This document shows, piece by piece, positions 61,925-63,540 of a stretch of DNA of 64,000 nt. The position numbers and the translations under genes were made by a program. The notes under the pieces are model-generated. The model was given only the letters and a program-made list of their open reading frames with translations. It had not been told where the DNA came from and did not search any database. Origin of the DNA: Pararhizobium sp. IMCC3301 (GTDB lineage: Bacteria; Pseudomonadota; Alphaproteobacteria; Rhizobiales; GCA-2746425); the NCBI RefSeq assembly GCF_030758315.1, contig NZ_CP132336.1:3501001-3565000 (forward strand), given 5' to 3'. Positions within the stretch are counted from its first letter, which is position 1. Each line of letters begins with the position of its first letter.

Positions 61925-62144
61925 AGCTTTGTCGTTTGAAAAACATGATGGACATCCTTGTGGACGGTTGAAAGCGTAGGCAGTCGAGAACTTGTTCCTT
62001 GATCCAAGGCCATTTTTTTTGTTGTTTTTGGCGGCCTTGGAATCAGCGATGGTCTTTGTCAGATCCCGACGCCCGGCTCAGGGGCGACACTGTGGGGCGG
62101 CGGGATCCTTTGCCGCAACAAACCAGTTGCTGCGTTTTCCCGGC

Positions 62145-62306
62145 TTATTTGCCGGAAAGGTCTTTCGCCAGGCCTGTATAACCAGGGGTCATGGCGTCAG
62201 GCGAGCTGTCATTGGCCGGATTGTAAACATTGGCACTGACAGCTGAGGCGCCAAGAACGATTGAACTGAGGATCAGAACGGGCGCTGCAATTTTACGAAA
62301 AGTCAT
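62145..62306 (-). CDS. 53-residue secreted peptide with one SPDAxTPGxTG motif
   Basis: A short frame: signal peptide (MTFRKIAAPVLIL..ASAVSA, cleavage near residue 25) and a mature 28-residue part, NVYNPANDSSPDAMTPGYTG then LAKDLSGK. AAGGA stands 8 bp before the ATG. The mature part is one repeat unit of the larger protein at 62919-63338, and the first residues (MTFxKxAP) also agree, so the two are paralogues. The function is unknown; a small, exported, Pro/Ser/Asp-rich peptide could be structural or a binding factor. Confidence 0.72.
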   Translation of the reverse strand: MTFRKIAAPVLILSSIVLGASAVSANVYNPANDSSPDAMTPGYTGLAKDLSGK

Positions 62307-62840
62307 TTTCTTATTCCTTGTTATTGGTTTTCGTTTTCTCTCTGGTGCGAGGGGTGTGTGCCTCTCGATGAATACAAGTTAGGTGATACTGTCTGCGATT
62401 TAAACGGGAACAATCCGTTCAACCTGGCTGAACATTCACAGCCCCGTGAGAGTGATCTGGCAAAGTGGCAGACTTCTGCGAATCTTGATTTCTGATCTCA
62501 CGAAAACACAATGCAGCTTCACCAATGTGTGTAGTCTTGTGACAAGGCCGTGTCCGGGAAAGACCTGAAAAATCTGGGGAAACGGCCGGAATTACCGCCC
62601 ATGAAGGCCAAATCCACATCATATTTTCCTGCTGACAGCCGAAGTTTCGCGGGCAGCGACTATCCGTGCATCAGGGTTGTGCGGCGCAAGCCAGTCTGTT
62701 GGCAGTGTCTGCAATCACAGCGATAAGATGATCGGCAACCAGCCTTATCCGGTGCGAGATACAACGATGAGGGCATGAACGGCGTTAAAGCGTAGCCGGT
62801 TTGGCACATCTCAACGGTGAGCCGCATCTGCCGCCACAAC
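62307..62840. other. Spacer between the two SPDA-motif genes
   Basis: I see no gene. Short minus- and plus-strand frames lack domains, signal sequences and starts. The first 100 bp should hold the promoter of the 53-residue gene, but no clear -35/-10 can be given. Confidence 0.4.
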
Positions 62841-62876
62841 AAAAAAGACGTATGGTGCGGAACACCATACGTCTTT
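62841..62876 (-). terminator. Intrinsic terminator of the SPDA-repeat protein gene
   Basis: AAAGACGTATGGTG and CACCATACGTCTTT arms (14 bp) with a 5-base loop are followed on the minus strand by TTT. It stands 43 bp after the gene's stop and fits a strong terminator. Confidence 0.88.
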
Positions 62877-62918
62877 CGCGTGTGAGAGGGCTGATCGTAA
62901 TCAGCTGACGCTCATCTG

Positions 62919-63338
62919 TTAGTTTGTAGAGGCAGTACCGGTCTGACCGGGAGTCTGCGCATCAGGAGACGTTTCATTGGCCGGGTTAAACACGCCTGAC
63001 GATTCTTTGTCATCGTCTCCGGTCATTGCAGTTTCATTGTTTTCAAGAGCAATACCCGTGCAACCTGGTGTCATGGCATCGGGTGCAGTTTCATTGGCTG
63101 AATTGAACACGCCGGACGTTTCGCAATTAAGCATGGTTTCGCCTGTCACGGCTGTTGCATTGTTGGATTCTGCAAGACCGGTCTGACCAGGGGTCTGTGC
63201 ATCTGGCGAGGAGTCTGTTGCGGCGTTGAATGTGCCTGTAGACTCAGTGACAGTATCGCTCGTTGCGACGGCGGCTGATGCGCTCAGCGCCAGAAAGCTA
63301 GCAAGTGTAATAGGGGCAATTTTCTTAATAAAAGTCAT
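62919..63338 (-). CDS. Secreted SPDA-repeat protein with three units
   Basis: A 139-residue protein with a signal peptide (MTFIKKIAPITLASFLALSA, cleavage near 22). The mature chain contains three units of about 39-41 residues beginning at 35, 75 and 114, each with the pattern FNxAxxxxPDAxTPGxTGxA; the first two are followed by NNxTAxTG. Cys72 and Cys93 lie in or next to the middle unit and could form a disulfide. AAGGGA precedes the ATG at 63338. I recognise no named family; see the findings for its relation to the 53-residue neighbour. Confidence 0.78.
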   Translation of the reverse strand: MTFIKKIAPITLASFLALSASAAVATSDTVTESTGTFNAATDSSPDAQTPGQTGLAESNNATAVTGETMLNCETSGVFNSANETAPDAMTPGCTGIALENNETAMTGDDDKESSGVFNPANETSPDAQTPGQTGTASTN

Positions 63339-63373
63339 ATCATTTCCCTTTTTGATTTCGCTGAAATTCAAAT

Positions 63374-63409
63374 GGATCGTTTATACTCAGCATGTCAAAG
63401 TAACGATCC
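63374..63409 (-). promoter_or_regulatory. Inverted repeat in the promoter region of the SPDA-repeat gene
   Basis: GGATCGTT (63374-63381) and AACGATCC (63402-63409) are 8-bp perfect inverted arms 20 bp apart, about 36 bp upstream of the ATG. Between them the minus strand has TTGACA and TATAAA, but too close for a normal promoter. A regulator site is a reasonable guess; no regulator is identified. Confidence 0.45.
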
Positions 63410-63540
63410 GGGTAGGGAAAAGTTTCAATTGCTTTGATTATTATAAGTTAACAGTTTGTTCACTGATGGCGGGGTTGAAAATCCATTTTTTGCGCTAGTG
63501 CGGCGCCGTGCCGCGGCCCGGAGATGCAGGCCGGTTTGAC

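Follow-up and report, generated by a model that had tools for sequence, protein, structure and literature searches.

A short peptide family with a PDAxTPGxTG unit, found so far in one bacterial genus, is encoded in multicopy arrays with conserved hairpins

Two neighbouring minus-strand open reading frames, coding for 53 and 139 amino acids and sharing a PDAxTPGxTG motif, raise the question whether genes of this kind are real and, if so, what such a family may be made for. They lie in the window, that is, the whole stretch of 64,000 nt analysed from Pararhizobium sp. IMCC3301, and an initial annotation had taken them for genuine genes of two paralogous secreted proteins. Both ORFs are indeed present (Table 1). 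The pattern [TV]FNx[AS][NT][DE]x[AS]PDAxTPGxTGxA occurs three times in the 139-aa protein and once in the 53-aa peptide, with ten of the 23 columns (N3, P10-D11-A12, T14-P15-G16, T18-G19 and A21) invariant across the units of both, and the single-unit peptide profile matches the beginning of the three-unit protein, together with its signal, with an E value of 1.2e-8, so that the paralogy of the two proteins is sound. The other features proposed for the pair were likewise recovered, namely signal peptides on both proteins (by sequence), SD-like sequences read ahead of the 53-aa and 139-aa starts (AAGGAA and AAAGGGAA) and an intrinsic terminator after the larger gene, which is the sole long stem among four terminator-like sites where 2.3 are expected by chance. 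Of the four further genomes available for the genus, two encode relatives spanning the length of the 139-aa protein (E 3.9e-53 and 2.5e-51; 71% and 69% identity), as would be expected of a real gene, and Cys93, inside unit 2, and Cys72, shortly ahead of it, are retained in all three known three-unit proteins.

Table 1. Features located in the window
Feature	Position (nt)	Strand	Details
Conserved structured 3' array end	62043–62131	−	A pair of hairpins; compensatory changes in the longer one (14 pairs)
Single-unit peptide gene, 53 aa	62145–62306	−	Predicted signal peptide about residues 1–25, mature part about 28 residues
Conserved upstream element, most single-unit arrays	62307–62566	−	GTGA/TCAC boxes at fixed spacing
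Intrinsic terminator, three-unit gene	62843–62877	−	16-pair stem followed by a T-run, about 41 bases past the 139-aa stop
Three-unit protein gene, 139 aa, with predicted signal peptide	62919–63338	−	
Unit 3, three-unit protein	62925–62993	−	Residues 116–138
Unit 2, three-unit protein	63042–63110	−	Residues 77–99; PDAMTPGCTG
Unit 1, three-unit protein	63165–63233	−	Residues 36–58

The view of a locus with just two genes did not stand, and the analysis adds further gene copies, their arrays, a common upstream element and hairpins. The genome of the window (G000, one contig of 4.58 Mb) holds one three-unit gene. Its single-unit genes number six and fall at three places: besides the one in the window, there is a tandem of three at C1:1257277-1258034 and a pair at C1:2255573-2256024. 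Intact single-unit copies total 33 across the five genomes examined from the genus (6, 10, 4, 7 and 6 in G000 to G004) and encode 19 distinct peptides; the count omits a G004 copy that contains N letters as well as incomplete copies at the ends of G002 contigs. The family is present in all five genomes, each with single-unit genes, and the small frame is conserved in relatives. The three-unit gene was found in three of the five: it is near groEL in G000 and G003 and at another place in G001, and the draft genomes G002 and G004 yielded none. This distribution is compatible with the suggested expansion from a one-repeat ancestor as one possible direction. In the G002 draft (about 20 contigs), all six array fragments found (C3, C6, C14, C16, C17 and C18) sit at contig ends, so that the repeats of the family probably break this assembly and hide copies. 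Genes of this kind, with an ORF of 53 codons and, in such a draft, array fragments that end contigs, can thus be missed.

To date the family appears restricted to this bacterial genus. An initial protein search gave matches in 5 of 61 relatives, each belonging to the genus. With the full-length profile, 8 of 397 genomes drawn from the order matched (the five of the genus and three by chance) and one of 385 from the class (the window's own), while the unit profile matched 7 of the 397 order genomes (five of the genus, two by chance) and 3 of 349 from the phylum (its own and two by chance). No convincing member beyond the genus was thus present in these draws of 397, 385 and 349 genomes, which overlap and sample larger groups, so that the absence holds for the drawn genomes. 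The three further order matches to the full-length profile (G018, G044 and G382, E 2e-4 to 1e-3) run opposite to, or out of frame with, long unrelated frames and were rejected. The unit-profile matches in G203, G015, G1014 and G1052 were attributed to chance: in three, an unrelated frame contains a short run reading PDAQTPG, and the search pattern found nothing at the fourth (L105). A tblastn search of phages gave a single match (MT835787.1, E 0.1), two sets of pattern matches in viral contigs (43 and 16) contained no confirmed relative, no family member was found on plasmids, and one of 72 matches to the three-unit protein patterns in genome contigs proved to be a relative. As anticipated, the family is an unnamed one: for the two window proteins the best Pfam match (Pik1, E 0.12) was under the cut-off and NCBIfam gave no match, the best PHROGs match was to a family of unknown function (phrog_11263, E 0.058), and PDB chains did not match the three-unit profile. 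No mention of the family appeared among the papers listed for related RNAs and small secreted peptides, which is no proof of its being unpublished.

To weigh selection on the peptide, pN/pS was counted in 27 of the 33 copies, each of 53 codons, the six G004 copies (56-57 aa) being left out. The ratio is 0.20 for residues 2-25 (signal), 0.09 for residues 26-53 (mature part) and 0.05 for residues 27-50 (core); with copies that are not independent, these values are descriptive. Silent changes abound (pS 0.36-0.40) against a nearly constant mature core, and the part predicted to be exported is under strong purifying selection. The low core ratio is the main evidence that the peptide, and not RNA alone, is selected, and it upholds the smaller ORF as a real gene. 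On the alignment, a basic start, a hydrophobic stretch and a small-X-small site, as in Sec-type signals, were recognised by eye, as was the cleavage site placed in the 53-aa peptide; the prediction of export rests on this signal-peptide sequence. The mature peptide of about 28 residues, G/N-VYNPANDSSPDAMTPGYTGLAKDLSGK, is near-invariant across species, and the periplasmic or surface role put forward for the two proteins is consistent with these data as a candidate. The AF2 model of the single-unit peptide (pLDDT 66) has a signal helix at residues 3-26 and a mature part without a confident fold, which fits a short linear ligand and could also reflect shallow alignments; the model of the three-unit protein (pLDDT 40, from three sequences) is uninformative.

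A peptide needed in bulk, as an envelope or matrix component with a structural or protective role, would agree with a mature part without predicted fold, with the existence of a multi-unit paralogue, and with copy amplification together with the concerted evolution discussed below. Codon usage, however, is not of the highly expressed sort: the CAI of 0.68-0.71 is ordinary beside the mean over 40 window ORFs (0.70), by a crude measure whose reference consists of minus-strand ORFs of the ribosomal-protein stretch, some of them doubtful. We hold such a bulk role to be possible, if rather doubtful.

The single-unit genes lie in arrays of one to three tandem copies. About 250 bp of upstream sequence are common to most of the 15 first copies aligned, one of which, from G002, is cut by a contig end. 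Besides its boxes, the element carries a TGTGAATGTTCA...GAAC...GTTTAAAT block, plus TCATCGAGAGGC near the presumed mRNA 5' end. The G004 copies b.1 and b.3 have a different upstream sequence, and b.2 has the core. When the element of the window was searched in the DNA of the five genomes, 18 matches were obtained, of which 14 adjoin arrays, two lie at G002 contig ends with no peptide gene remaining on the contig, and two are short (34 bases before a later G001 copy, and 29 bases elsewhere in G004 with E 0.07). The spacing of the GTGA/TCAC boxes (20, 21, 52 and 10) is kept in five of seven sequences, and a single spacing is preserved in each of the two from G004; as a count the boxes are unconvincing, with two of the seven sequences below 0.05 in a Markov control. 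A scan of the window stretch found no sigma-70-type promoter.

The element was not seen in the window at 63339-63520, ahead of the three-unit gene. There, TTGAAAC is followed after 16 bases by CGTT (CGTG in G003), an arrangement common to the three-unit genes of G000, G001 and G003 that is perhaps an alternative-sigma promoter.

As to genomic surroundings, an array adjoins hisG in all five genomes and a DctM transporter gene in four (the window's hisG and four DctM genes were named by Pfam). These two positions are what is common, and no gene among ORFs of at least 100 aa is conserved beside all arrays. This bears on the reading of the peptide as a secreted signal, or pheromone, perceived by a receptor of the same genus. 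A short product with an export signal, a mature sequence near-invariant across species and a conserved upstream element would be expected of it, but the array neighbourhoods share no receptor gene; a histidine kinase gene about 0.4 kb from one G004 array was not seen at other arrays. High copy number is, moreover, unusual for a pheromone, and we regard this role as quite unlikely.

Between the genes of an array, 16 of 17 spacers contain one long hairpin, the exception (G004b.1) bearing the upstream core instead; three G001/G003 spacers and one G004 spacer were extracted past the adjacent gene to the following one, and show the hairpin in their first part. Over 15 spacers from four genomes, 98.1% of cells are paired and 18 are double-change cells, with none of 500 shuffles as high; for the number of pairs with double changes 31 of 500 shuffles were as high, and pair types were unremarkable (331 of 500). 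The structured 3' end behaved similarly in 12 sequences, with 97.3% of cells paired and seven double-change cells (no shuffle of 500 as high) and unremarkable pair types (392 of 500). In both cases the control leaves the relatedness of the copies in, and the structures derive from the same alignments. When the partners were slid, pairing fell to 19-52% across the two structures. When the five genomes were searched with the resulting models, strong matches numbered 15 for the spacer and 13 for the 3' end, every one at an array; most of them are rows used in model building, and the informative point is that no strong site lies elsewhere. The G004 spacers, missed by the spacer model, have similar loops on different stems at the corresponding position. 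CCUCCC is found in 17 of 19 inter-gene spacers (one more, with N letters, was left out). The loop mostly reads UCUCCUCCC or ACCCCUCCC, and one G003 spacer has lost its motif. Control in cis by pairing of the loop with the peptide's own AAGGAA is unlikely, since that pairing would be short. The dispersed arrays finish with a GC-rich hairpin and a T-run, as judged by eye, which are absent from the three hisG-side arrays shown. In the window, a minus-strand hairpin with an A-rich loop lies between the peptide gene and hisG (61980-62060), and a similar GGCC...GGCC hairpin is retained at G001-G003 array ends.

Arrangements of this type recall two groups of alphaproteobacterial RNAs. At the CIN1 (CcaF1-CcsR1-4) locus of Rhodobacter sphaeroides, a small ORF is reported to be co-transcribed with tandem homologous RNAs and followed by a terminator, one copy of the ORF, for a 71-aa DUF1127 RNA-binding protein, preceding four RNAs (PMC10253847). 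The layout of a small ORF with tandem hairpins is alike here at the level of sequence, but our ORF carries a predicted export signal and the hairpins alternate with repeated ORFs. The alpha-r14 sRNAs (NfeR1, SmelA075) are reported to have CU-rich anti-Shine-Dalgarno loops and several copies per genome, and pairing of their CCUCCUCCC loop with targets has been described (PMC3927594, PMC10746234, PMC7143759). The spacer hairpins share the CU-rich loop and the several copies per genome; on the contrary, they sit between coding genes, have no Rfam match (one sub-threshold match each for the window stretch and for nine loci), and their loops come close to CCUCCUCCC without being exact, with 0 of 19 spacers identical and 15 of 19 within two mismatches. 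A Pfam scan of the two window proteins found no DUF1127. With both this domain and the exact loop lacking, the arrays are not assigned to the CIN1/cuckoo class.

One may nevertheless suppose that RNA is the main product, the arrays being sRNA loci of cuckoo/CcsR type and the peptide ORF a passenger or a minor second product. The conserved hairpins with compensatory changes and the frequent CCUCCC would be in line with this, as would published alphaproteobacterial sRNAs with CCUCCUCCC loops, which can be co-transcribed with a small ORF. The strong selection on the peptide speaks against it, as do the lack of an above-threshold Rfam match and of the exact loop, the loss of the motif in G003 and the window array itself, which has a peptide gene and no inter-gene spacer; we consider this supposition improbable.

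In G001, and likewise in G003, units taken from different places share for the most part 95-96% identity (92% for one long G001 pair), whereas G001 and G003 units at the same place share 82-85%. In the genome of the window, the window array stands apart at 79-81% identity to the other two arrays, which are 92-95% alike. Overall, the likeness within genomes points to concerted evolution of the arrays; the shared places together with the within-genome likeness would suggest gene conversion, and lineage-specific spread or recent dispersal is the other possible course. In rRNA-type operons a whole multicopy unit is likewise repeated and homogenised within a genome; the peptide arrays resemble them in this respect and differ in encoding a peptide with a predicted export signal and in being found in one genus. 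Dispersed near-identical units with sharp ends could also be a mobile, transposon-like repeat whose peptide has no function in the cell. Pfam detected an IS4/5-type transposase pair near one G001 array (a split gene at L068:9906-10663, about 3 kb from this dispersed array), the flanks of the other arrays being read as ORF lists. However, the unit ends coincide with the upstream element and the terminator, ten arrays compared had no clear terminal inverted repeats (best local scores 7-11, uncontrolled), the hisG position is kept in all five genomes and the peptide is under purifying selection, all of which makes a mobile repeat very improbable.

The reading we prefer, at a probability of about 0.55 with its mechanistic steps included, is that of a genus-specific family whose copies are amplified for the dosage of a single short exported peptide. 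Each array would be one transcription unit, and the arrays would be switched on jointly by a regulator binding the upstream element. The peptide would be made in quantity, exported and remain unfolded, acting outside the cytoplasm by binding a conserved partner through PDAxTPGxTG, with the three-unit protein as a putative multivalent version under its own promoter. The spacer hairpins would control transcript stability or processing, and may in addition give rise to small RNAs whose loops are CU-rich. Against this stand the crude codon-usage measure, which lends high expression no support, the window array, a single gene without spacer and divergent from its sister arrays, and the lack of a gene conserved beside all arrays. 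A secreted peptide made in quantity with hairpins for processing being favoured, a two-product locus is kept as a bold alternative, which we judge unlikely: a single transcript would alternate secreted-peptide ORFs with anti-Shine-Dalgarno hairpins, so that one signal would yield both bulk peptide and translation-damping small RNAs, the arrays being homogenised by gene conversion. The family is of interest as a taxon-restricted one that lets selection, copy amplification and homogenisation all be seen. Should the hairpins be processed, the alphaproteobacterial layout of a small ORF with tandem hairpins would be shown to accommodate an exported peptide.

A last observation concerns a second gene behind a G004 peptide gene and its CUCCUCCCUCCC hairpin (L078:6142-6477, i.e., G004:C83:20141-20476), with the same type of signal peptide and a different body of 86 residues. 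Part of this body is similar to secreted proteins of the isochorismatase family in other genomes from the order, with some 43 residues matching a longer protein that is an isochorismatase by Pfam. This match makes the divergent gene look like a fusion of a signal peptide with the remnant of a gene, and it was rejected as a possible partner of the peptide.
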